The position numbers were made by a program, and so were the translations under genes. A stretch of 32,408 nt of DNA from Gammaproteobacteria bacterium (GTDB taxonomy: Bacteria > Pseudomonadota > Gammaproteobacteria > HyVt-429). The stretch spans positions 1-32,408 of the forward strand of contig JAJDOE010000044.1 in assembly GCA_022340345.1 (NCBI GenBank). The letters are read 5' to 3'. Positions 12,332-28,996 of the stretch are shown here, in pieces (positions within the stretch are counted from its first letter, which is position 1; each line of letters begins with the position of its first letter). The notes beneath the pieces are model-generated. The model saw only the letters and a list, made by a program, of their open reading frames with translations, was not told where the DNA came from and made no database searches.

Positions 12332-13672
12332 ATGGGAGCCGCAACGGAAATCCGGGTCCCGGACATCGGCGATTTTGCCGAGGTGGACGTTATCGAGGTA
12401 CTGGTGAAAAGCGGCGACCGGGTCAACCCGGAAGACCCGCTGGTCACCCTGGAAAGCGACAAGGCCACCATGGATGTGCCCTCGCCATCCGGTGGCATTG
12501 TGCTGGAAGTGCTGGTGGCCAGTGGCGACAAGGTCAGGGAAGGCACCCCGATCCTGATGCTGGACGGCCAGGCCAGCGCGGAGGAAGCCCCCCCGGCCGG
12601 GAACTCCGAGCCGGAACCGGCTCCAGCCGGCGTGGTGGCCGCACCGGAAGCCGAAGAACGGGGCGAAGTTGCGCCGGCGGCCCGAACCGAGGACCGGAGC
12701 GACGACGAACCCCAGCACCCGGCACCACCGCCCACACTGCCACCACCGGCGGAGAAGGCCGGGATGGCCAAGCCCCATGCCAGTCCGTCGGTGCGCCGTT
12801 TTGCCCGCGAGCTGGGGGTGGACCTGACCAGCGTGCGCGGCTCGGGCGCCAAGGGCCGTATCCTGCGCGACGACGTGCAAGCATTCGTCAAGCGCCAACT
12901 TTCCCGTCCGTCGTCCGCAGGCGCCCCCGGCGAACTCGGCCTGCCGGTCCTGCCGGAAGTGGATTTCACCAAATTCGGCGAGATCGAATACCAGCCGCTC
13001 AACAAGATCAAGCGCCTGACGGCCGCCAGCATGCACCGCAGCTGGCTGAACGTGCCCCATGTTACCCAGCACGACGAAGCGGACATCACCGACCTGGAGG
13101 ACTTCCGCCAGTCCCTGAAGGCGGAGGCCGCCCAGAGCGGCGTCCGGGTGACGCTGCTGGCTTTCATCCTGAAGGCCAGCGCCCGGACCCTGCGCGCCTT
13201 TCCGGAGGTCAACGCCTCGCTGGAACGGGGCGGCGAAAACCTGATCCTGAAAAAGTACGTGCACATCGGTGTCGCGGTGGACACCCCCGAGGGACTGGTG
13301 GTACCCGTAATCCGCGACGTGGATCGCAAGGATATCAACGCCCTGGCGGCGGAACTGGGTGAGCTGAGCGAGAAGGCGCGCAACCGCAAGCTGGGGCCGG
13401 CCGACCTGCAAGGCGCCAGCTTTACGATCTCCAGCCTCGGCGGCATCAGCGGTACCGCTTTCACGCCGATCGTCAACGCACCCGAGGTGGCGATCCTCGG
13501 CGTGAGCCGCTCGAAACTGCAGCCGCAGTGGAACGGCAGCGAGTTCGTTCCGCGCCTGATGCTGCCGCTGTCCTTCTCCTACGATCACCGCGTCATCGAC
13601 GGCGCCCAGGCGGCGCGCTTTACCGGGCACCTGTGTCAGTTGCTCGCGGACCTGCGCCGCGTGCTGTTGTAA
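12332..13672 (+). CDS. aceF: Dihydrolipoamide acetyltransferase, pyruvate dehydrogenase E2
   Basis: E2 transfers the acetyl group from lipoamide to CoA and forms the core of the complex. The 446-residue protein has one N-terminal lipoyl domain (1-80) with the attachment lysine K44 in ESDKATMDV. A long Pro/Ala/Glu linker is followed by a peripheral-subunit-binding domain (SPSVRRFARELGVDL...GAKGRILRDDV, about 145-182) and the catalytic domain. The active-site SYDHRVIDG gives H419 and D423. E. coli E2 has three lipoyl domains, so this is a short single-lipoyl form. ATG 12332 follows the aceE stop by two bases. lpdA follows after 11 bases. Confidence 0.97.
   Translation: MGAATEIRVPDIGDFAEVDVIEVLVKSGDRVNPEDPLVTLESDKATMDVPSPSGGIVLEVLVASGDKVREGTPILMLDGQASAEEAPPAGNSEPEPAPAGVVAAPEAEERGEVAPAARTEDRSDDEPQHPAPPPTLPPPAEKAGMAKPHASPSVRRFARELGVDLTSVRGSGAKGRILRDDVQAFVKRQLSRPSSAGAPGELGLPVLPEVDFTKFGEIEYQPLNKIKRLTAASMHRSWLNVPHVTQHDEADITDLEDFRQSLKAEAAQSGVRVTLLAFILKASARTLRAFPEVNASLERGGENLILKKYVHIGVAVDTPEGLVVPVIRDVDRKDINALAAELGELSEKARNRKLGPADLQGASFTISSLGGISGTAFTPIVNAPEVAILGVSRSKLQPQWNGSEFVPRLMLPLSFSYDHRVIDGAQAARFTGHLCQLLADLRRVLL
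12347..12487 (+). repeat. Lipoyl-domain coding repeat, copy in aceF (second copy 13699-13839 in lpdA)
   Basis: Residues 6-52 of AceF and of LpdA align without gaps and are identical at 38 of 47 positions, counted by hand. The DNA is also similar (for example, both contain a CCGGACATCGGCGA stretch). The two copies lie about 1.35 kb apart in direct orientation, as expected from duplication of a lipoyl domain within the operon, and could support recombination between them. Confidence 0.8.
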
Positions 13673-13683
13673 CGAAGATAGCC

Positions 13684-15426
13684 ATGGCAAACGAAATCGA
13701 GATCCGCGTGCCGGACATCGGCGACTTCAGCGATGTGGAAGTCATCGAAGTACTGGTCAAGGTCGGTGACCTGGTGCGACGGGAAGACCCGCTGATCACC
13801 CTGGAGAGTGACAAGGCCACCATTGACGTGCCCTCCCCGGGCGAAGGCCGGGTGCATATCATCCACGCGGCCAAAGGCGACCGGGTCTCGGAGGGCTCCC
13901 CCATCGTCAGCCTGACTCCGGTAGCGCCGGCCCGGTCGGACAGCAGTGAGGCGCCGGCCCAATCGGACCGCAGTGAAGCGCCGGCACCGGCCACCGACAA
14001 GATCATCGCCGAGCATGGCAACAGCGACCGCCTGCACGCCCAGGTGCTGGTCCTAGGCGCGGGGCCCGGGGGTTACACCGCCGCCTTTCGCGCCGCCGAC
14101 CTGGGGCGCACGACGATCCTGGTGGAGCGGTACCCGAGCCTGGGCGGGGTCTGCCTGAACGTGGGCTGCATTCCGTCCAAGGCCCTGTTGCACGCCGCCG
14201 CGGTGATCTCCGAGGCCCGCGAAATGGGGGAACGCGGAGTTCGCTTTGGCGAACCGCAACTGGATCTGGTCGCCCTGGCGAAGTGGAAGGACACGGTAGT
14301 GAACCGCCTGACCAGTGGCCTCGCCGGGCTGGCGCGCCAGCGCAAAGTGCGGGTCATTGAGGGCACCGGCCGATTTGCGGGGCCCCATGAACTGGAAGTA
14401 CAGGGTGCGGACGGCGTCACCCGGGTGCACTTCGACCACGCTATTATCGCCGCCGGTTCCGAGGCCACCGGCCTTCCGGGGGCAGCCGAAGACGAGCGCA
14501 TTATGAGCTCCACCGGCGCGCTGCAATTGACAGATGTACCGGGGCGCCTGCTGATCATTGGCGGTGGAATTATCGGCCTGGAGATGGCCACCGTGTACAG
14601 CGAACTGGGCAGCCAGGTGACCGTGGTGGAGCTGGGCCCGCAACTGCTGCCCGGCGTAGACAAGGACCTGGTGCGGCCGCTGGAGAAACGACTGCGGACG
14701 AAGCTGGAAGCCATTCGCCTCAATACCGCGGTGGAAAAACTCCAGGTGGATGGCGACCAGGTGCGTGCGCGTTTCAGCAGCGAACCGAACAAGGACATCT
14801 TCGACCGGGTACTGGTAGCCATCGGCCGTCGCCCCAATGGCGATCGCATCAACGCGGAGGCGGCCGGTGTGCAGGTGGACGAACGCGGCTTTATTCAGGT
14901 CGATGCGCAGCAACGCACCAACATACCGCACATTTTCGCCATCGGGGATCTCACCGGCCAACCCATGCTGGCGCACAAGGCCACTCATGAAGGCAAGGTG
15001 GCGGCAGAGGTGGCGGCCGGCGAGAAAAGCGGCTTCGAGGCCCGCGTCATTCCCTCGGTGGCCTACACCGATCCCGAGGTGGCCTGGGTCGGCGTTACCG
15101 AGGCCCAGGCCAACGCCGACGGTCTGGACTACGGCAAGGGCACCTTCCCGTGGGCCGCCAGCGGCCGGGCGCTGGGACTTGGCCGGGAAGACGGGCTGAC
15201 CAAGCTGCTGTTTGATAAAAGCACCGGGCGGGTCATCGGAGCGGGCATCGTCGGACCACGCGCCGGTGATCTGATTGCGGAAGCCGCGCTGGCCATTGAG
15301 ACCGGCTGCGACGCCAGCGACATCAGCCTGACCGTGCATCCCCATCCGACCTTGTCCGAAACCGTCGCATTCGCGGCGGAATCCTTCGAGGGAACCATTA
15401 CCGACCTGTACATGCCCCGCCGGTAG
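13684..15426 (+). CDS. lpdA: Dihydrolipoamide dehydrogenase (E3) with N-terminal lipoyl domain
   Basis: E3 reoxidises dihydrolipoamide using FAD and NAD+. The 580-residue protein is longer than plain E3 (about 475) because residues 1-80 form a lipoyl domain with K44 in ESDKATIDV. A linker with two near-repeats, DSSEAPAQSD and DRSEAPAP, follows. The E3 body starts near 118: FAD motif VLGAGPGGYTAAF, redox disulfide GGVCLNVGCIPSK (C157 and C162), NAD motif IIGGGIIGLEMA, and the C-terminal HPHPTLSE with the catalytic His-Glu pair. Such lipoyl-E3 fusions are known in some proteobacterial pyruvate dehydrogenases. It ends the pdh trio, but the next gene begins only 16 bases later. Confidence 0.97.
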   Translation: MANEIEIRVPDIGDFSDVEVIEVLVKVGDLVRREDPLITLESDKATIDVPSPGEGRVHIIHAAKGDRVSEGSPIVSLTPVAPARSDSSEAPAQSDRSEAPAPATDKIIAEHGNSDRLHAQVLVLGAGPGGYTAAFRAADLGRTTILVERYPSLGGVCLNVGCIPSKALLHAAAVISEAREMGERGVRFGEPQLDLVALAKWKDTVVNRLTSGLAGLARQRKVRVIEGTGRFAGPHELEVQGADGVTRVHFDHAIIAAGSEATGLPGAAEDERIMSSTGALQLTDVPGRLLIIGGGIIGLEMATVYSELGSQVTVVELGPQLLPGVDKDLVRPLEKRLRTKLEAIRLNTAVEKLQVDGDQVRARFSSEPNKDIFDRVLVAIGRRPNGDRINAEAAGVQVDERGFIQVDAQQRTNIPHIFAIGDLTGQPMLAHKATHEGKVAAEVAAGEKSGFEARVIPSVAYTDPEVAWVGVTEAQANADGLDYGKGTFPWAASGRALGLGREDGLTKLLFDKSTGRVIGAGIVGPRAGDLIAEAALAIETGCDASDISLTVHPHPTLSETVAFAAESFEGTITDLYMPRR

Positions 15427-15442: not shown

Positions 15443-15949
15443 ATGCGTAGGGGAAAAATCCGGCGGCGGCTGCCCGTCACCGGTATGGCGATTGCCTTGC
15501 TGCTGTCCGCCTGCTCGGAACCGGTGACAGAGATCCAGATCAGCGGACACGACTACCGCTGGCGGATGCCCACCCGGACCGGCGATGTCAGCCTGTACCG
15601 CCAGACTGGCAGCGAACAGGCGGAACTGTGGCTGCCGGCCAACCGGCGCATCCGGCTGGTGCTGAACAGCGATGATTTTATTTACCGGTTCGAAATTCCC
15701 GCCCTGGGCGTGCGCGAGATGGCGGTTCCCGGTGTTCCCATGATGGCGGAGCTGCACACCCCCGACGCGGGACGGTACGAACTCACAGGAGACGGCATGG
15801 AACTCAAAGGCGATCAGATGTGTGGCTTCCGTCACCAAAGTCTCAAGGGCCGGGTGCGCATTGCGGCACCGGCCGAATACCGGGCCTGGCTGGAGGCGCA
15901 GGGCCGGCTCACGGCCGGGACCGGGTCCGCTACCGGGCGGGGTAGCTGA
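15443..15949 (+). CDS. Lipoprotein with degenerate cytochrome oxidase subunit II-like cupredoxin domain
   Basis: A 168-residue exported lipoprotein: a basic n-region (MRRGKIRRR), a hydrophobic stretch and lipobox LLSAC with C24. Residues 30-145 resemble the cupredoxin domain of cytochrome c oxidase subunit II (FIYRFEIPALGVREMAVPGVP; CGFRHQSLKG). The CuA ligand set is broken. By alignment to H...C-x3-C-x3-H-x2-M, the first His is Y81, the first Cys is G123 and the Met is L134. Only C127 and H131 remain, so it cannot hold a normal dinuclear CuA centre; a mononuclear or metal-free role is possible. It lies 16 bases after lpdA and one base before the FG-GAP gene, suggesting co-transcription. Function is unknown. 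Confidence 0.8.
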   Translation: MRRGKIRRRLPVTGMAIALLLSACSEPVTEIQISGHDYRWRMPTRTGDVSLYRQTGSEQAELWLPANRRIRLVLNSDDFIYRFEIPALGVREMAVPGVPMMAELHTPDAGRYELTGDGMELKGDQMCGFRHQSLKGRVRIAAPAEYRAWLEAQGRLTAGTGSATGRGS

Positions 15950-15950
15950 T

Positions 15951-17840
15951 ATGCCGGCACGCCTGCGTACCCGCCTGTGGCTGGCATGCCTCCTGGTTGC
16001 CGGTCCCGCGATGGCGGCCGAGCGCCTGCCCTTTCCGGCGGACGTCCTCAATCCTCCCTGGGTGGAGGGCCGGCAGCTGGAACAGACCCTGGATGCCGAT
16101 TCCCTGGCCGTCGCCCACGACCTGCAGTTTCGCGATCAACAGCCACAAAGTGGAATCAACTTCCGCCACCAGGTGGTGGAGGATGCGGGCCGGGCCTATA
16201 AGGCGGTGCATTACGATCACGGCAATGCCGTGGTCGCCGCGGATGTGGACGGTGACGGCCTCCCCGACCTGTACTTTGCTACCCAGCTGGGTGGCAATGC
16301 CCTGTACCGTAACCTCGGCAATGGCCGCTTCGAGGACATCACGGCACGCGCCGGCGTGGCGGTAGCGGATCGTGTTTCGGTAGCCGCGGCATTCGCCGAC
16401 ACCGACAACGACGGCGACCCGGACCTGTTTGTCACCACCGTCAACCAGGGCAACCTGTTGTTCCGCAACGATGGTGACGGGAAATTCACAAACATCAGCG
16501 GCCCGGCGGGCCTGGACCATCGCGGCCACGCCTCCGGCGCGATTTTCCTGGATTACGATCGCGACGGCCTGCTGGACCTGTTCGTCACCCACGTTGGGGT
16601 ATACACCACCGACAAGATCGGACCCGGGGGATACCGGATCGGCCTGAGCGATGGTTTTTCCGGCCAGTTGCATCCGGACCGCTTCGAGACCAGCCGGCTC
16701 TACCACAACCTCGGCGGCAACCGCTTCGCCGACGTTACCCGGTCGGCGGGCATCGAGGACAACAGCTGGAGCGGCGACGCCCACGCCGCCGACCTCAACG
16801 GCGACGGCTGGCCGGATATCTATCTGCTCAACATGCAGGGCCACGACCAGTATTTCGAGAACCAGGCGGGCAAAGGTTTCAAGCGGCGCAGCCGGGAGCT
16901 CTTCCCGGTAACCCCGTGGGGCTCAATGGGCATCCGCATTGCCGATTTTGACAATGACGGCGACCCGGACATTTTCGTAACCGACATGCACACGGACATG
17001 GTGGAAGAACTCCCGCCCGCGCGGGAAAAGGAACGGATGCCCCACAACTACCCGCAGGCCTTCCTCGCTACCGATGGCCGCCACATGCTGGGCAACGCAT
17101 TTTTTCGTAACGCCGGCAACGGAACCTTCCGCGATATCTCGGCGGAAAACGGCGCCGAGACCTTCTGGCCCTGGGGTCTTTCCTCCGGGGATCTGAATGC
17201 GGATGGCTTCGAGGATGTCTTCATAACGGGCAGCATGAACTACCCGTTTCGCTACGGCGTCAACTCGCTGTTGCTCAACGACGCCGGTAAGCGATTCGTG
17301 GATGCCGAGTACCTGCTCGGGGTGGAACCACGACGGGACGGAAAGACCGCAACCCCGTGGTTCGAACTCGATTGCTCCGGCCCAGACCGGACCCATGAAT
17401 TGTGCAAAAACCGTGCCGGAGCCGTTGAGGTGTGGGGCGCCCTTGGCAGCCGGTCCTCGGTGATCCTGGACCTGGACGGAGATGGCGACCTGGATATCGT
17501 CACCAACGAGTTCGGCAGTGTGCCGCAGGTGCTGGTGAGCGATCTGGCGCAACGCCGGCCGCGGCTCAATTACCTGGCGGTACGGCTGGAAGGGAAAAAA
17601 TCCAATCGCGATGGACTCGGAGCGCGCGTGCAGCTGGAGACCGACCGGGGCCGCTACGTTCGCTTTGCCGATGGCAAGAGCGGCTACCTGGGTTTCAGTT
17701 CGATGCCGCTGTACTTCGGGCTGGCGGCGGATGAAAAAGCCGTTCGCCTGGAGATCACCTGGCCGTCCGGTGTCCGCCAGTCGCTGGATGCCCCCATCGA
17801 TACCCGAAAGACCCACCGAATCGTTGAAGCGGGCGGCTAA
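15951..17840 (+). CDS. Exported FG-GAP/VCBS repeat protein with ASPIC/UnbV C-terminus (CRTAC1-like)
   Basis: This 629-residue protein begins with a Sec signal peptide (MPARLRTRLWLACLLVAGPAMA, cleavage likely after residue 22), so it is periplasmic or exported. The body is a beta-propeller of FG-GAP/VCBS repeats with at least seven calcium-type loops: DVDGDGLPD, DTDNDGDPD, DYDRDGLLD, DLNGDGWPD, DFDNDGDPD, DLNADGFED and DLDGDGDLD. The end (GLGARVQLETDRGRYVR, FGLAADEKAVRLEITWPSGVRQSLD) is an ASPIC/UnbV domain as in CRTAC1-type proteins. Such proteins are usually thought to bind ligands or partners; I see no catalytic motif. ATG 15951 is preferred as it yields the signal peptide. The TPR gene overlaps its 3' end. 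Confidence 0.9.
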   Translation: MPARLRTRLWLACLLVAGPAMAAERLPFPADVLNPPWVEGRQLEQTLDADSLAVAHDLQFRDQQPQSGINFRHQVVEDAGRAYKAVHYDHGNAVVAADVDGDGLPDLYFATQLGGNALYRNLGNGRFEDITARAGVAVADRVSVAAAFADTDNDGDPDLFVTTVNQGNLLFRNDGDGKFTNISGPAGLDHRGHASGAIFLDYDRDGLLDLFVTHVGVYTTDKIGPGGYRIGLSDGFSGQLHPDRFETSRLYHNLGGNRFADVTRSAGIEDNSWSGDAHAADLNGDGWPDIYLLNMQGHDQYFENQAGKGFKRRSRELFPVTPWGSMGIRIADFDNDGDPDIFVTDMHTDMVEELPPAREKERMPHNYPQAFLATDGRHMLGNAFFRNAGNGTFRDISAENGAETFWPWGLSSGDLNADGFEDVFITGSMNYPFRYGVNSLLLNDAGKRFVDAEYLLGVEPRRDGKTATPWFELDCSGPDRTHELCKNRAGAVEVWGALGSRSSVILDLDGDGDLDIVTNEFGSVPQVLVSDLAQRRPRLNYLAVRLEGKKSNRDGLGARVQLETDRGRYVRFADGKSGYLGFSSMPLYFGLAADEKAVRLEITWPSGVRQSLDAPIDTRKTHRIVEAGG

Positions 17841-19383
17841 TCCGCACCGCTGGCCGGCCCTGCTGCTGGCGCTGTTTCTGGCACCGGCCGCCGTCGCCGG
17901 GGAACTGCGCAGTCCGGAGCACCCCGACCCGGCGGCGTTCGACCCCGCCATGCGCGCCGCGGTGGCCGAAGCCCGCGGGCAACTGCAGGACGCGGCCGGG
18001 TGGGCGCGGCTCGGCAGTCTGTATCTGCTGGTGCATGCCAACGCGGCCGCTGCGGATGCCCTGCACAACGCCGCCACCCTGGAGCCACGGGAATTTCGCT
18101 GGCCCTACCTGGAAGGTATTGCACTGCACCGCGCGGGACAGGCGGCCGCCGCCCGCCATGCCTGGCAGTCGGCCCTGACGCGCGACCCGAACTATGCACC
18201 GCTGCGCTTGCGGCTGGCGCGCAGCGCGCTGGAGGCGGGACACACCGACGCGGCGCAGGATTTCCTGGCCGACGCCCGGGCGACCGCTACCGGGCAGGAA
18301 CTGGCCGGCGAAATTGCCCTGGCACGGGGCCAGGTCAAGGAGGCGGTAACGGCGTTCACCCGGGCGCTGGAGCTGGCACCCCAGGCGAACTGGCTGCACG
18401 TTCGCCTCGCGGTCGCCTACGGAAAGGCCGGAGACAAGCAAAAAGCCCGCGAGCACCTGAAGGCACGCGGAACCCGGCGCCCGGAGATCAGCGACCCGGT
18501 GTTGGAGGCGGTGAGCGCGGCGCGACCGCGTGACGTGGCCAGCTTCCTGGAGGAGGCCCATGCCGCGTTGTCCAGGAACCACCGTTACAGCGCCCTGCTC
18601 GCCTTTCAGGCCGCAGTCCGCATGGATCCCCGCTCCGTACCGGCGTTACTGGGAATCGCCGGCCTGAGCCTTGGCGCGGGACGAAAGGCGGAGGCGCTGG
18701 GGTATCTCCAGCGCGCGCTCGAGATCGAACCGGGTTCCGCGGAGGCCCATTTCTATGCCGGCCTGATCCAGGAAAGCAACGGCGCGGCAGCCAGGGCGGA
18801 GTCCCACTATGTCCGCGCGCTGCCGCGGGAATCGGCCCGCTACCGGCTGGCGCGCCTGCTGCTGCGCCTGGGTCGCGCCGCCGAGGCCCTGCCGCACCTG
18901 GAGGTGCTGACGGCCGAAAAAAGCGCCACCGCCGTTCGCTTCTACTGGCTTGGACTGGCGCATTTGGCGATGGGGAATTGCGCAGGCGCCGCCGCCGCTC
19001 TCGACGCCGCCCACGCCCGGGACGCGAACAGCGGCGAAGTGATCGCGGCACGGGTGCGTGTGCATTCCAGTTGCGCGCCACTGGACGGGCCGGCGCGCGC
19101 CCGCCTGCTTGCGCAGGCACAGCGTCTCTACCAGGCGCGTCCGGACGCCGGCGATGCGGAAACCCTGGCAATGGCGCTGGCGGCCGCGGGCGAGTTCGAC
19201 AAGGCGCTCCGCTACCAACAGCAGGCGCTGGCCGCCACGGCGCCGGAAGCGCCCCAGCGGCCTTTCCTGGCGGCCAACCTGGCGCGCTATGCCCGGGGCG
19301 AGACCGCGATTGCCCCCTACGAAAAGGATTCTCTGCGCCTGCGCCCACCCGCGGACCAGTACTCGTCGCCGCCGGCGCCCTGA
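17788..19383 (+). CDS. Exported tetratricopeptide-repeat protein
   Basis: From ATG 17788 the protein has 531 residues with a hydrophobic export signal (WPALLLALFLAPAAVAG, about residues 22-38) after a basic KRAANPHR stretch. A TTG at 17824 would give a shorter n-region and is an alternative start. The rest is a long array of degenerate TPR helices, for example GWARLGSLYLLVHANAAAADA, AVTAFTRALELAPQANWLHV, EALGYLQRALEIEPGSAEAHF and EALPHLEVL, implying a protein-binding scaffold in the periplasm. It overlaps the FG-GAP gene by 53 bases in another frame, so the two are probably translated together. No enzyme motif is visible. The 69 bases to the convergent methyltransferase contain no convincing terminator. 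Confidence 0.85.
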   Translation: MPPSIPERPTESLKRAANPHRWPALLLALFLAPAAVAGELRSPEHPDPAAFDPAMRAAVAEARGQLQDAAGWARLGSLYLLVHANAAAADALHNAATLEPREFRWPYLEGIALHRAGQAAAARHAWQSALTRDPNYAPLRLRLARSALEAGHTDAAQDFLADARATATGQELAGEIALARGQVKEAVTAFTRALELAPQANWLHVRLAVAYGKAGDKQKAREHLKARGTRRPEISDPVLEAVSAARPRDVASFLEEAHAALSRNHRYSALLAFQAAVRMDPRSVPALLGIAGLSLGAGRKAEALGYLQRALEIEPGSAEAHFYAGLIQESNGAAARAESHYVRALPRESARYRLARLLLRLGRAAEALPHLEVLTAEKSATAVRFYWLGLAHLAMGNCAGAAAALDAAHARDANSGEVIAARVRVHSSCAPLDGPARARLLAQAQRLYQARPDAGDAETLAMALAAAGEFDKALRYQQQALAATAPEAPQRPFLAANLARYARGETAIAPYEKDSLRLRPPADQYSSPPAP

Positions 19384-20624: not shown

Positions 20625-21932
20625 ATGAAACCCGACACCTCGATAAGCCCACTGGCCCTGGCGAAGACGCTCCGCCAGGGCGCGGCCGCCGGCATGCTCG
20701 CCCGCCTCGCCGCCGCAGGCCTTGCCCTGTTGGTGCAAATCGTGCTCGCACGGGTACTGGGCGTACCCGCATACGGGCAATATGTATTCATCATCGCGTG
20801 GGTAATGATACTAGCAAAACTCGCGACACTCGGATTCGACACCTCTCTGGTGCGCTTCGCGGCCGCCTATTCCGAAACCGACGATTTTGCCGCTCTCAAG
20901 GGCCTCTGGCGCTGGAGCAACCTGCTGGTGACCGGTACCGCCGCGAGCGTGCTCGCGGCGCTCGCCATCCTGGTTGCCGGCAATGCCACGCTTTCCTTTT
21001 CCCCGGCGGAATACGCCGGGCTGGCGCTCATCCCGCTGCTGGCGCTGACCGCCCTGCGACAGGCCCTGATGCAGTCTCAGCAACGGGTGGTGCGGGCGCT
21101 GCTACCGGACAGCTTCCTGCGCCCGCTGCTGCTGCTGGCGGCCATCGCGGTCTGGGTATGGGTTCTCGGGTACCGACCGGACCTGAGCGATGTGCTGAGC
21201 GTACAGGTTGCCGCCGCAGCCGCCTCGCTGGTGCTGGGATCGCTGATGGTGGTGAACATGACGCGCCGGCGGCTGGCTTCCCGCGAAGCCGAGTATCGCG
21301 GTCGGGAATGGCTGCGGACTTCGATCCCCCTGCTGGTCACCAGTTCGCTGGTGCTGATCCAGAACCAGACCGACGTGCTGATGCTGGGCCTGTTGGCGGA
21401 CCGGGCGCATTCGGGTATCTACGCGGTTTCCGCGCGCCTGTCGGAGACCGTCACCTATGGCATTGTGGCCGTGAACGCGATCTTCGCGCCGCTGTGCGCG
21501 GGGCTGTATGCCCGTGGCGAACGCGAGGACCTGCAGCAGCTCATGCGCCGTGCGGCGCGGACCGGTTTCCTGCTGGCCGCGGTAATCAGCCTGTTGCTGT
21601 TGGCGCTGGCAAAACCCGTGCTCGGGCTTTTCGGCCCGGTGTTCGTCACCGGCTTCGCGGTGCTGGGGATCCTGCTTCTTGGCCAGCTTTTCAGCGCCGG
21701 GGCAGGTTCCGTTGGCATGATCATGGCGATGACCCGCCACCAGGTAACGCTGGCGTGGTTGTCGTCCGGAAGCCTGGTGCTGAATATCCTCCTCAACGCT
21801 TTGCTGATTCCGCTCTGGGATATGACGGGCGCTGCGATCGCTACCACCGTCAGCACCATAGCCTGGAACCTCGGCGGTACCATTTTTCTCGCCCGCCGGG
21901 AGCGTCTGCACTCATCGGTACTTCCATCATGA
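20625..21932 (+). CDS. Polysaccharide flippase (Wzx/MATE-like, MVF superfamily)
   Basis: The 435-residue integral membrane protein has about 12 hydrophobic helices. It opens with the typical flippase pattern ALAKTLRQGAAAGMLARLAAAG, VQIVLARVLGVPAYGQYVF and LATLGFDTSLVRFAAAY. LVLIQNQTDVLMLGLLADRAHSGIYAVSARLSE is the usual repeat-two signature. Family members move lipid-linked saccharides across the inner membrane. Start is ATG 20625; upstream in-frame codons (to 20328) are antisense to the methyltransferase. The 68 bases between the divergent starts contain no clear promoter. The sulfotransferase begins inside its stop codon (ATGA). Confidence 0.92.
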   Translation: MKPDTSISPLALAKTLRQGAAAGMLARLAAAGLALLVQIVLARVLGVPAYGQYVFIIAWVMILAKLATLGFDTSLVRFAAAYSETDDFAALKGLWRWSNLLVTGTAASVLAALAILVAGNATLSFSPAEYAGLALIPLLALTALRQALMQSQQRVVRALLPDSFLRPLLLLAAIAVWVWVLGYRPDLSDVLSVQVAAAAASLVLGSLMVVNMTRRRLASREAEYRGREWLRTSIPLLVTSSLVLIQNQTDVLMLGLLADRAHSGIYAVSARLSETVTYGIVAVNAIFAPLCAGLYARGEREDLQQLMRRAARTGFLLAAVISLLLLALAKPVLGLFGPVFVTGFAVLGILLLGQLFSAGAGSVGMIMAMTRHQVTLAWLSSGSLVLNILLNALLIPLWDMTGAAIATTVSTIAWNLGGTIFLARRERLHSSVLPS

Positions 21933-22855
21933 TCCGGCGGCCCGGATTTTTCGTGATCGGTGCACCCAAGTGCGGCACCACCGCCCTGTGCCACTATCTG
22001 GAACAACACCCGCAGGTCTGTTTTTCCCACGGCAAGGAGCCCAGCTACTTCTGTACCGACCTTCCGGCGTTGCGCCTTTCCACGACCGAACCGGAATACC
22101 TGGCAAAGGAATTCGCCCACTGCGGTTCCCATCACTCGATAGCCGGAGAAGGATCGGTGCTGTACCTGTTTTCGCGGGAGGCGGTGCCGAACATCAACCG
22201 CTTCGATGCGGATTCCCGATTCCTTGTCATGTTGCGCAATCCGGTCGACGCGGTGTACTCCTACCACGCGCAACAGGTGTACAACCTGGACGAGGACGTG
22301 GCGGATTTCGAAACTGCCTGGAATCTGCAGGAGCAGCGCCGCCAGGGCGCACGGCTGCCTGCCACCTGCCGCGACCGGCAGCTTCTGATGTACCGGGACA
22401 TCACCCGCTTCGGCGAGCAGGTCCAGCGCCTGTTCGAACAGGTGCCCCGGCGCCGGGTGCACGTGATCCTCTACGAGGATTTCGCCCGCGATACGGAGAC
22501 CTGTTACGCCCGGGTGCTGGAGTTTCTTTCGCTGCCCAGGAAATTTCCGGCGAGCTTCCCGGTGATCAACCCCAACAAGCGAGTCCGCAGCCGGGTGCTG
22601 GCACGGATTGCCACCCGCCCCCCTCGCTGGGCGCAGGGCCTGGCCCGCCAGGTCCAGCGCCTGACCGGCCGGCACCGGCTGGGGGTGTCCCAGGCCCTTG
22701 CCAGCCTGGTCGATCGTTTCAATCGCGTGGAGGCACCACGCCAGCCCATGCCGCAGGCGCTGCGGGCACGCCTGGTCGATGAATTTCGCGATGACATTGG
22801 CCTGCTGCAGGACCTGCTGGAGCGGGACCTGAACCACTGGCTGGACCCGGAATGA
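21929..22855 (+). CDS. PAPS-dependent sulfotransferase
   Basis: The 308-residue soluble enzyme would move a sulfate group from 3'-phosphoadenosine 5'-phosphosulfate to an acceptor. The 5'-phosphosulfate loop IGAPKCGTTALCHYL starts at residue 10. The 3'-phosphate motif FLVMLRNPVDAVYSYH has R103 and S111 in the conserved positions, and HVILYEDFARDT is the typical following strand. The C-terminal 100 residues are basic with RVRSRVLARI. The pattern is that of the carbohydrate (heparan/GlcNAc-type) sulfotransferase family, so a sugar acceptor is inferred. The start overlaps the flippase stop and the end overlaps the glycosyltransferase start (both ATGA), indicating a coupled set. Confidence 0.92.
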   Translation: MIRRPGFFVIGAPKCGTTALCHYLEQHPQVCFSHGKEPSYFCTDLPALRLSTTEPEYLAKEFAHCGSHHSIAGEGSVLYLFSREAVPNINRFDADSRFLVMLRNPVDAVYSYHAQQVYNLDEDVADFETAWNLQEQRRQGARLPATCRDRQLLMYRDITRFGEQVQRLFEQVPRRRVHVILYEDFARDTETCYARVLEFLSLPRKFPASFPVINPNKRVRSRVLARIATRPPRWAQGLARQVQRLTGRHRLGVSQALASLVDRFNRVEAPRQPMPQALRARLVDEFRDDIGLLQDLLERDLNHWLDPE

Positions 22856-24790: not shown

Positions 24791-27085
24791 CTAGCGAGAA
24801 ACCCGCTCCAGCCGATCCACCATGCGGAACCCGCGCGGCAATTTCAGGCCACGATTTTCTCGCGAGCCCAGGAAGTGATCGATGTCCGCCGGCCGGAGGT
24901 TGAGATAGCGCTTTCCGGCGTGTACCCGGATGCGGTCCCCTTCGAGAAAAGTCACCACCCCGGCCACCAGTTCCTCCCGCTTGTTCAGCCTGTTGCCGGG
25001 AATGTTCACCAGCTTGATACCCTTGCCCCGGGGCAGCAACGGCAACTCGCTGGCGGCATACACCACCATATTGCCGGCGGTGGTCGCCACCGCCACCCAG
25101 GTGTCATCGAGATCACCCACCGGCTGGGGCGGCAACACCCCGGCCTGCGCCGGGACCCGCAGCGCTGACTTGCCCTTCTTGTTGCGGGTTGCCAGTTCCC
25201 CCAGGGTGCTGATGAATCCATAGCCGGCATCGCTGCATAGCAGGCAGCGGGTGGTCTCCTCACCAAGCATGACCCCGGCGAAAGACGCCCCGGTGGGTGG
25301 GTGCAACAGGCTGCTCAACGGTTCCCCCTGGCTACGCGCGGAGGCCAGGTTGTGAGCGGGCAGGCTGTAGCTTCGCCCGGTGGAATCCATCACCACCAGC
25401 AACTGGTTGGTGCGTCCACGCGCCGAATCCAGGTAGCCATCACCGGACTTGAAGGACAGCGATGTCGGGTCGATCTCGTGTCCTTTGGCGCCACGAATCC
25501 ACCCGCGGCGGGACAGCACCACCGTCACGGGTTCGGCGGGCACCATGGCGGTCTGGTCCAGCGCACGCGCCGCTTCGCGTTCCCGCAGCGGTGACCGGCG
25601 CGGGTCACCAAAATCTGCCTCTACCTGCTCCAGTTCCTTGCGCATCACGGTTTTCATGCGCGCCTTGGACTTCAGGGTCGTCTGCAACCACTGGCGCTCG
25701 GTGGCCAGATCCTCCTGTTCCGCGCGAATCCGGATTTCCTCGAGGCGCGCCAGCTGGCGCAGCCGGATTTCCAGGATTGCGCTGGCCTGGATTTCACTCA
25801 GGCGAAACCGCTTCATGAGGCGCTTTTTTGGCTCATCCGATTCGCGGATGATGCGGATCACCTCGTCAATATTGAGAAACGCCACCAACAGCCCGTCGAG
25901 CACGTGCAGTCGCTGCGACACCCTTTCCAGCCGATCCGCAAGACGGCGCTTGAGGGTTTCGGCGCGGAAGCGCAGCCATTCCAGCAACAGGCTGCGCAAG
26001 TCGAACAGCCGCGGGCGCCCATCCAGCCCGATGGCGTTCATGTTCACCCGGTAGCTGCGCTCCAGGTCGGTAGTGGCAAACAGGTGTGCCATCAGTTCGT
26101 CCGCGTTCACCCGGTTGGAGCGCGGCACAATTACCAGCCGGGTCGGGCTCTCGTGGTCGGACTCGTCCCGCAGGTCCTCCACCAGTGGCAGTTTCTTGGC
26201 CAGCATCTGGGCAGCGATTTGCTCCAGGATCCGCGAACCCGACACCTGGTGTGGCAAGGCGGTGACAATAATGTCGCTTCCCTCTCGTTCCCATGCGGCA
26301 CGCATACGCAAGGAGCCACCGCCGCTCGCGTAGATGGCCCGGATTTCCTCCGCGGGGGTAATGATCTCCGCGTCGGTCGGAAAATCCGGCGCCTGAATAT
26401 GGCGAAGGATGTCCTTGAGCGTCGCACGCGGGTGGCGCAGCAATTCCATGCAGGCCGCCACCACTTCGCGCAGGTTGTGGGGAGGAATATCGGTAGCCAT
26501 GCCAACAGCGATTCCGGATGCGCCGTTGAGCAGAATGTTGGGCAACTGGGCGGGAAGCAGTTTCGGCTCCTGCAGTGTGCCATCGAAATTCGGAGCCCAA
26601 TCCACCGTGCCGTGCTCCAGTTCCGCCAGCAGGGTTTGCGCATAGCGTGTGAGGCGGGACTCCGTGTAGCGCATGGCTGCGAATGACTTGGGATCGTCCG
26701 CCGAGCCCCAGTTCCCCTGGCCGTCCACCAACGGATACCGGTAGCTGAAGGATTGGGCCATTAGCACCATGGCCTCGTAACAGGCGCTGTCCCCGTGCGG
26801 GTGAAACTTGCCGATCACGTCACCTACCGTGCGCGCGGACTTTTTGAACTTGGCCGCTGCGCTCAATCCCAGTTCCGACATCGCGTAGATGATTCGCCGC
26901 TGCACGGGTTTGAGTCCGTCCCCGACGTGCGGCAACGCGCGGTCCAGGATGACGTACATGGAATAATCCAGGTAGGCGCGCTCCGAGAAGGCCGCCACCG
27001 GGACGGTTTCCAGGCGCGCCGCCGAAGCGGCCGGTGCCGGCTTGCGCCGTTTCTTTGCGGGCATGGTTTTCTTGCGCGGACTCAT
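24791..27085 (-). CDS. parC: DNA topoisomerase IV subunit A
   Basis: ParC is the DNA-cutting subunit of topoisomerase IV, which separates linked daughter chromosomes. The 764-residue protein carries a basic N-terminal extension of about 20 residues ([16 protein letters not shown]), then the family start [15 protein letters not shown]. The catalytic tyrosine is Y140 ([11 protein letters not shown]). The quinolone-determining region [15 protein letters not shown] keeps S100 and E104 (E. coli S80, E84), so this looks quinolone-sensitive at these sites. The C-terminal domain is the short ParC type. ATG 27085 is used, with ATG 27064 as a possible start. It follows parE by 21 bases. Confidence 0.97.
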
Positions 27086-27106
27086 GGAAGGCGGCTACCC
27101 GGCCAC

Positions 27107-28996
27107 TCAGTTCAGCCGCGCCTGGTCACCCATCTTGCTGAGCCAGCTCTTGCGATCCGCGGAGCGCTTGCGCGCCAGCAGCAGGTCCATGGTAGGCATG
27201 GTCCGGTCGCCGCTGCGGATGGACAACTGCACCAGGCGCCGGGTTTCCGGAAGCATGGCGGTCTCCCGCAACTGCATGGGGTTCATTTCGCCAAGACCTT
27301 TGAAACGCTGCACGTTCACCTTGCCGCCCAGTTTCTCGGATGCAATACGTTTCAGCACCTGCCCGCGTTCCCGGTCATCCAGGGCATAAAACACGTGCTT
27401 GCCCACGTCGATGCGAAACAGCGGCGGCATCGCCACGTGGACCCGGCCCGCTTCCACCAGCGGACGAAAATGGCGCACGAACAATGCGCACAGCAGGGTC
27501 GCGATGTGCGCTCCGTCCGAATCGGCGTCGGCGAGAATGCATACCTTGCCATAGCGCAGCCCCTCGAGATCCGACGACCCCGGGTCCACACCCAGGGCCA
27601 CGGCGATATCGTGAACTTCCTGTGAGGCCAGCACTTCGCCGGAATCCACTTCCCACGTATTCAGAATTTTCCCCCGCAGGGGCATGATGGCCTGGAATTC
27701 CCGGTCACGGGCCTGCTTGGCGGAGCCACCGGCAGAATCTCCCTCCACCAGGAACAACTCGGTGCGGTCCAGGTCCTGGCTGCTGCAGTCTGACAACTTG
27801 CCCGGCAGCGCCGGACCGCTGGCAATCTTCTTGCGCTGCACCCGCTTGCCCGCTTTCAGCCGCCGCTGCGCATTCTCGATCGCCATGTGCGCAATGGCCT
27901 CAGCCTCCGCGGTATGCTGATTCAGCCACAGGCTGAAGTTATCCTTGGCTACCCCGGAAACGAACAACGAGGTCTCGCGGGACGACAAGCGATCCTTGGT
28001 CTGTCCGGTGAACTGGGGATCCTTCAGGCGCACCGAAAGAATGAAGTGGCAACGTTGCCAGACATCATCGGGACTGATTTTCAGCCCGCGGGGCAGCAGG
28101 TTCTGAAATTCGCAGAACTCGCGAATGGCATCCGTGAGCCCGGATCGTAAACCGGTTACGTGGGTGCCGCCTTGTGGGGTTGGCACCAGGTTGACGTAAC
28201 TCTCCGCCAGGGGCTCGGCATCATCCGGACTCCAGGCCACTGCCCAGTCCACTTCCTCATCGTCACCCCGGAAGCGACCAATGAACGGCTCGGCCGGTAC
28301 CAGTTCCAGGCCACCGATCTCGTCCAGCAGGTAGTCCTTGAGGCCGTCCTCGTAGTTCCAGGTTTCGTTGTCCTTGGGGTCCTGCTCGTTACGGAAGGTG
28401 ACCGTGAGCCCCGGACACAATACGGCCTTGGCACGCAGCACATGGCGTAATCGCGACACGTTGAACTTCACGGTGTCGAAGTACTGTGGGTCCGGCAGGA
28501 AGCTGATGCGGGTTCCGGTGTTGCGCTGGCCCACCTTGCCGACAACCTGCAACTCGCTGCTCTTGGCGCCACCCTCGAATCGCATCAGGTACTCCTTGCC
28601 ATCGCGCCGCACCCGCACCTGCAACAGGCTGGAAAGGGCGTTTACCACCGAAACACCAACCCCGTGCAAGCCACCGGAGAAACGGTAGTTTTTTTGGGAA
28701 AATTTGCCACCGGCATGCAGGCGCGTGAGGATCACCTCGACCGCGCTGACACCTTCCTTGTGTTTGTCCACCGGCATGCCCCGCCCATCGTCGCCAACGG
28801 ACATCGAACCATTTTCGTGCAGCACCACCTCGATATTGCGGGCGAATCCCGCGATCGCCTCGTCCACCGAGTTGTCGATGACTTCCTGGGCGAGGTGGTT
28901 GGGGCGTTCGGTCTGGGTGTACATGCCCGGACGCTTGCGCACGGGCTCCAGCCCCGTCAGTACCTCGATCGATGACGCGTCGTAGGCGCTGCTCAT
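27107..28996 (-). CDS. parE: DNA topoisomerase IV subunit B
   Basis: ParE supplies ATP-driven strand passage to ParC. At 629 residues it matches gammaproteobacterial ParE and lacks the insert that lengthens GyrB in this group. The GHKL ATPase domain shows VIDNSVDEA (E38, N42), DDGRGMP and FSGGLHGVGVSVVNALS. The transducer domain is followed by the TOPRIM core with LVEGDSAGGSAKQARDR, PLRGKILN and DADSDGAHI, and by QRFKGLGEMNP at the end. Start ATG 28996 lies ten bases after the CNP1-like gene. parE and parC are adjacent as in many bacteria. Confidence 0.97.
   Translation of the reverse strand: MSSAYDASSIEVLTGLEPVRKRPGMYTQTERPNHLAQEVIDNSVDEAIAGFARNIEVVLHENGSMSVGDDGRGMPVDKHKEGVSAVEVILTRLHAGGKFSQKNYRFSGGLHGVGVSVVNALSSLLQVRVRRDGKEYLMRFEGGAKSSELQVVGKVGQRNTGTRISFLPDPQYFDTVKFNVSRLRHVLRAKAVLCPGLTVTFRNEQDPKDNETWNYEDGLKDYLLDEIGGLELVPAEPFIGRFRGDDEEVDWAVAWSPDDAEPLAESYVNLVPTPQGGTHVTGLRSGLTDAIREFCEFQNLLPRGLKISPDDVWQRCHFILSVRLKDPQFTGQTKDRLSSRETSLFVSGVAKDNFSLWLNQHTAEAEAIAHMAIENAQRRLKAGKRVQRKKIASGPALPGKLSDCSSQDLDRTELFLVEGDSAGGSAKQARDREFQAIMPLRGKILNTWEVDSGEVLASQEVHDIAVALGVDPGSSDLEGLRYGKVCILADADSDGAHIATLLCALFVRHFRPLVEAGRVHVAMPPLFRIDVGKHVFYALDDRERGQVLKRIASEKLGGKVNVQRFKGLGEMNPMQLRETAMLPETRRLVQLSIRSGDRTMPTMDLLLARKRSADRKSWLSKMGDQARLN

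Follow-up and report, generated by a model that had tools for sequence, protein, structure and literature searches.

Proteins of the CRTAC1/UnbV family (also ASPIC1; PF07593 together with FG-GAP repeats) are common in bacteria and have almost no assigned function there, and our literature search on the family found no bacterial function for it. A fixed gene partner is a handle on these proteins. The other family that concerns us is subunit II of cytochrome c oxidase (COX2, CoxB; PF00116 and TIGR02866), and the consensus pattern of CuA ligands that we used for it is His; Cys-x-Glu-x-Cys-x3-His-x2-Met. In the quinol oxidases, the subunits CyoA and QoxA have the COX2 fold without a working CuA centre and play a structural role, and the subunit of E. 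coli is a lipoprotein. This precedent indicates that a COX2 domain can persist structurally without CuA. Furthermore, in the Acidobacteriota, plasmids of Acidisarcina and Granulicella carry CRTAC1 genes side by side with TPR genes. In addition, a 2025 paper described CRTAC1-family (FG-GAP) genes beside hydrazine-synthase-like genes (PMC12758564).

Three genes for exported proteins behind lpdA

In the window (the whole stretch of 32,408 nucleotides that was analysed), three genes for exported proteins follow the pyruvate dehydrogenase (pdh) genes. The features are as follows.

13690..15426, plus strand: lpdA, upstream neighbour and end of the aceE-aceF-lpdA set; lipoyl domain and dihydrolipoamide dehydrogenase by Pfam
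15443..15949, plus strand: lipoprotein gene, 168 aa, lipobox LSAC, Cys24-Ser25; soluble COX2 CuA-type cupredoxin domain with a degenerate CuA site
15951..17840, plus strand: propeller gene, 629 aa, exported CRTAC1-type protein; FG-GAP repeats and a C-terminal UnbV/ASPIC domain
17824 (TTG)..19383, plus strand: TPR gene, 519 aa, exported protein; alternative start ATG 17788

For lpdA, our searches used 13690 as the start; in the list of open frames it starts at 13528. Coding in all three frames of the trio agrees with the GC content by codon position. As the initial annotation had described, the three genes follow lpdA consecutively on the same strand, with gaps of 16 bases (lpdA stop at 15426 to ATG 15443) and 1 base (lipoprotein stop at 15949 to ATG 15951). 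The 53-base overlap given there for the propeller and TPR genes holds only with ATG 17788. The overlap is 17 bases with TTG 17824, which is most likely the true start, because translation from it begins with a clean signal peptide (MKRAANPHRWPALLLALFLAPAAVAG) and because the overlap then falls within the 1-23-base range of five paralogous junctions in the same genome. The export signals claimed for the three proteins were all found when their sequences were read: the lipobox before Cys24 in the lipoprotein, and ordinary signal peptides in the propeller and TPR proteins.

Our scan of the trio unit on the plus strand, including the gap behind lpdA, found no promoter-like sites. No terminator-like site lies between lpdA and the trio, and the weak ones inside the TPR coding region are at chance level. 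Rfam gave no match anywhere in the window. With a gap of 16 bases and no terminator-like site in it, read-through from lpdA into the trio is likely in the source organism. Elsewhere in the window, parC and parE (Gram-negative type) adjoin at 24791-28996; both are on the minus strand and 21 bases apart.

We tentatively prefer to read the trio as a complex of exported proteins from translationally coupled genes; a COX2 domain without CuA would serve in it as a membrane-anchored adaptor and not as an electron carrier. The CRTAC1-type propeller and the TPR protein would form its core, a translationally coupled pair that has been multiplied in this lineage. The lipoprotein would be a COX2 CuA domain that was freed from cytochrome oxidase and, having lost the site for electron transfer, was put to new use as an adaptor with a lipid anchor. 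Its task would be to tether the propeller to the membrane, and since a Ser follows the lipidated Cys, this is probably the outer membrane; the TPR protein would be a scaffold for partners. The translational coupling, the physical complex, the outer-membrane location and the adaptor role are what we infer from the gene order, domains and export signals.

The lipoprotein and its CuA ligand positions

The lipoprotein matched the Pfam COX2 model above its cut-off (1.1e-5), and the CoxB model TIGR02866 at 9e-15, which is below the full-length cut-off of that model. Sequence searches of the PDB matched only COX2 chains and no mononuclear copper protein. A structure model of moderate quality (mean pLDDT 74, built on 20 sequences) was best matched in Foldseek by the periplasmic domains of CoxB (4txv and 4w9z, TM about 0.6), and CyoA was also among the matches. 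The description of this protein as a cupredoxin-like lipoprotein agrees with its lipobox, and its fold can be specified as the COX2 CuA domain; a generic cupredoxin is ruled out, since the best-scoring models are those of COX2. Identity with subunit II of quinol oxidases was also rejected (QOXA, 15.3 bits versus a cut-off of 240.95; CyoA, 12.3 versus 266.2).

In an alignment with 18 ordinary COX2 proteins, the CuA ligand positions of the lipoprotein are Tyr81, Gly123, Gln125, Cys127, His131 and Leu134 in place of His, Cys, Glu, Cys, His and Met. Only two of the six ligands, Cys127 and His131, are kept, and both sit in the motif GDQMCGFxH. At the four replaced positions, nearly all of the ordinary proteins have His, Cys, Glu and Met. 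An ortholog was found in G008, a genome of 62% completeness from a different family. At 37% overall identity, it has the same four replacements (Tyr, Gly, Gln and Leu) and the same GDQMCGFxH, and the loss of ligands is thus seen in two lipoprotein sequences, one from the window genome and one from G008. A working CuA centre is ruled out by these positions. By its sequence, the lipoprotein is a COX2 CuA domain that has lost the CuA centre and retained two of the ligand residues. A scan of the genome contigs with the lipoprotein also gave 18 loci that were rejected, as their loop is of the C-x-[E/Q]-x-C-G-x-x-H-x-x-M type for CuA and not GDQMCGFxH.

The lipoprotein has only a lipoprotein signal and no transmembrane helices, and its neighbours are lpdA and the UnbV gene, not coxA. 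On another contig (C114), meanwhile, the window genome retains an ordinary COX2/CoxB with full CuA ligands and with coxA next to it, which means that the oxidase subunit is a protein other than the lipoprotein.

The main rival to the adaptor reading is a working mononuclear metal site, for copper or another metal, on Cys127 and His131, in which Met126 or a residue located elsewhere may also take part. The lipoprotein would then be a metal store, a chaperone or a one-electron carrier for the propeller and TPR proteins. Of the CuA ligands, only Cys127 and His131 are kept, and they lie within a motif that is invariant despite the low identity of the two orthologs. In addition, Cys127 is the sole Cys apart from that of the lipid anchor, so that an intramolecular structural disulfide is unlikely. 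A purely structural role leaves the retention of both residues unexplained, and this is a point against the adaptor reading. However, the four positions lost include that of the His on the other strand, now Tyr81, the alignment of the two orthologs has no substitute His conserved elsewhere, and the PDB searches gave COX2 chains only. We consider such a metal site somewhat unlikely on this evidence.

The propeller, its partners and their distribution

The propeller belongs to the CRTAC1/UnbV-ASPIC family. It has a signal peptide and matched FG-GAP_3 in six stretches (1.3e-48; 163.9 bits versus a cut-off of 26.9) and, at its C-terminus, UnbV_ASPIC (4e-12; 46.2 bits versus 23.4). With seven calcium-loop motifs of the DxDxDG type, these matches bear out the earlier description of a calcium-loop FG-GAP/UnbV propeller. 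Murine CRTAC1 (9etn) is the only solved structure matched by its sequence (2.5e-17) and also its best fold match (Foldseek, 1.4e-23).

Among 369 genomes of the class, the propeller (E ≤ 1e-60) and the GDQMCGFxH variant of COX2 were each found only in the window genome and G008; for the variant, the G008 match had an E value of 2e-115 and the next best 3e-14. In G008, the two genes adjoin and keep the order of the window, with a 4-base ATGA overlap, and the propellers are 64% identical. The other neighbour of this pair is a divergent UnbV gene. The contig (C132) stops inside the propeller gene, before the position of the TPR gene, and no second complete trio was found among the 369 genomes; the drafts compared are incomplete. 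Furthermore, one relative was found in the phylum (398 genomes), in genome G622. It is 53% identical over the C-terminal part of the propeller and differs in the N-terminal part, and its contig, which ends inside the propeller gene, has no COX2-like gene. The 398 phylum genomes and the 78-genome class of G622 gave nothing beyond this partial relative. The three propellers share features such as WPWGLSxGDxNADGxxDxF, SMNYPFRY and LGVEPRRDG. A plasmid search with the propeller found only CRTAC1 proteins of about 30% identity.

The TPR protein matched Pfam TPR families, and its gene lies downstream of the propeller gene on the same strand. In the window genome, six of the nine UnbV genes, including that of the trio, are directly followed by a gene of this TPR family, and the gene ends overlap by 1, 4, 4, 17, 23 and 23 bases; the TPR HMM was run on contigs fetched mainly for their UnbV genes, which leaves TPR genes elsewhere in the genome uncounted. 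By a simple count, the chance of six such junctions in nine is about 3e-9 at 50 TPR genes in 2700, far beyond chance, but the copies are paralogs, and the figure exaggerates their independence. In the class sample, no genome but the window genome and G008 gave a TPR match at E ≤ 1e-45. In G008, the match is a full-length TPR gene; 2 bases separate it from another UnbV gene upstream, and two further TPR genes come after it. The best TPR relative in G008 (33%) is a paralog adjoining another UnbV gene, not that of the pair. The co-occurrence of UnbV/ASPIC and TPR proteins that the initial annotation had stated is thus borne out by six junctions in the window genome and one in G008. The neighbourhood search that it had proposed gave a divided result: the lipoprotein-propeller pair is conserved in order in G008 and the propeller-TPR pair recurs, but the complete trio was seen in one genome only.

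These results could also mean that there are two functional pairs, propeller with TPR protein and lipoprotein with propeller, and no three-protein complex, and that the cluster reflects co-transcription with a housekeeping operon. The complete trio was seen in one genome only, the link to pdh is not conserved, and no COX2-like gene stands beside the other UnbV-TPR couplets of the window genome. On the other hand, both junctions of the trio have a 1-base gap or an overlap, and no internal promoter- or terminator-like site was found beyond the chance-level matches in the TPR gene. We regard two separate pairs as quite unlikely. Literature searches on the combination of the three families found nothing relevant.

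The attachment of the trio to the pdh genes was not supported. No pdh genes lie on the G008 contig that carries the lipoprotein-propeller pair, where the divergent UnbV gene is nearest. In seven genomes, the LpdA relatives found besides the query itself were no more than about 42% identical; relatives at about 40% identity mean that the nearest genomes give no syntenic comparison for pdh. The place of the trio behind these genes looks incidental from such sequence comparisons. A role of the trio as an accessory to pyruvate or respiratory metabolism would fit the 16 bases to lpdA with no terminator-like site between, and the COX2-derived domain. However, the trio proteins are exported and the pdh proteins cytoplasmic, the G008 pair lacks pdh, the COX2 domain lacks CuA, and oxidase genes proper are present at another place in the genome. 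Such a role is highly improbable.

Several further observations concern the surroundings of UnbV genes. One contig of the window genome (G000), C57 (22 kb; L059, L112), holds four UnbV-TPR couplets, and also a TPR-sulfotransferase, a TPR protein with a 2OG-Fe(II) oxygenase domain and a prolyl oligopeptidase. In both G000 and G008, a gene for a large membrane-anchored protein (N-terminus around YVPAVGPKLRKLLYVVFALF) lies directly upstream of one for a membrane-anchored UnbV protein.

G000:C62, L101 11133-15838: large protein and UnbV protein
G008:C140, L097 5438-7887: same arrangement
G008:C124, L100 2982-5228: same arrangement

Meanwhile, the two genomes with the lipoprotein-propeller pair are rich in Sulfotransferase_3 genes (about 18 matches in G000 and 10 in G008), against 1-2 matches in three family relatives. 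Several of these genes also contain TPRs, and four are found no more than about 5 kb from a UnbV gene (binomial about 0.006, counted post hoc).

Window, 20798-22855: Sulfotransferase_3 gene near UnbV
G000:C57, L059 13730-15853: same
G008:C74, L086 3-1274: same
G008:C1, L098 2261-3790: same

On G008:C1, the UnbV gene is followed by a gene for a lipoprotein that resembles, by eye only, an enzyme of the alkaline-phosphatase/sulfatase type. Protein sulfation is possibly linked to these exported proteins.

Comparison with described systems

Taken broadly, the trio may represent a new exported complex, in which a CuA domain freed from cytochrome oxidase and stripped to one Cys and one His would be lipid-anchored and would partner a CRTAC1-type propeller and a TPR scaffold, either as an adaptor or as a mononuclear metal protein of a new type; we offer this as a possibility, with some reserve. 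One copy of a propeller-TPR couplet multiplied in the lineage would then carry a re-purposed oxidase domain. If this is true, a CuA domain has left the respiratory oxidase and changed its role, and the function of bacterial CRTAC1 relatives becomes testable.

The propeller shares with CRTAC1/ASPIC1 the domain order, the calcium-loop propeller, export, sequence and fold. However, it has conserved motifs of its own with its relatives in G008 and G622, and it is linked to a COX2-derived lipoprotein. The lipoprotein shares with CoxB/COX2 the fold, the sequence and the LP, D, P and CG..H framework, but it differs in the four replaced CuA positions, the lipid anchor, and the lack of transmembrane helices and of a coxA neighbour. 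With CyoA/QoxA, it shares a COX2 fold without a working CuA centre. However, those subunits have transmembrane helices and lie in oxidase operons, whereas the lipoprotein keeps the Cys and His of the CuA loop and scores far below their cut-offs. The loci of Acidisarcina and Granulicella likewise place a CRTAC1-family gene beside TPR genes, but there the TPR gene is upstream, the propellers are about 27-29% identical to ours, and the annotated neighbours include no COX2-like gene. Finally, the trio resembles the loci beside hydrazine-synthase-like genes (PMC12758564) in that a CRTAC1 gene is associated with genes for exported redox proteins.
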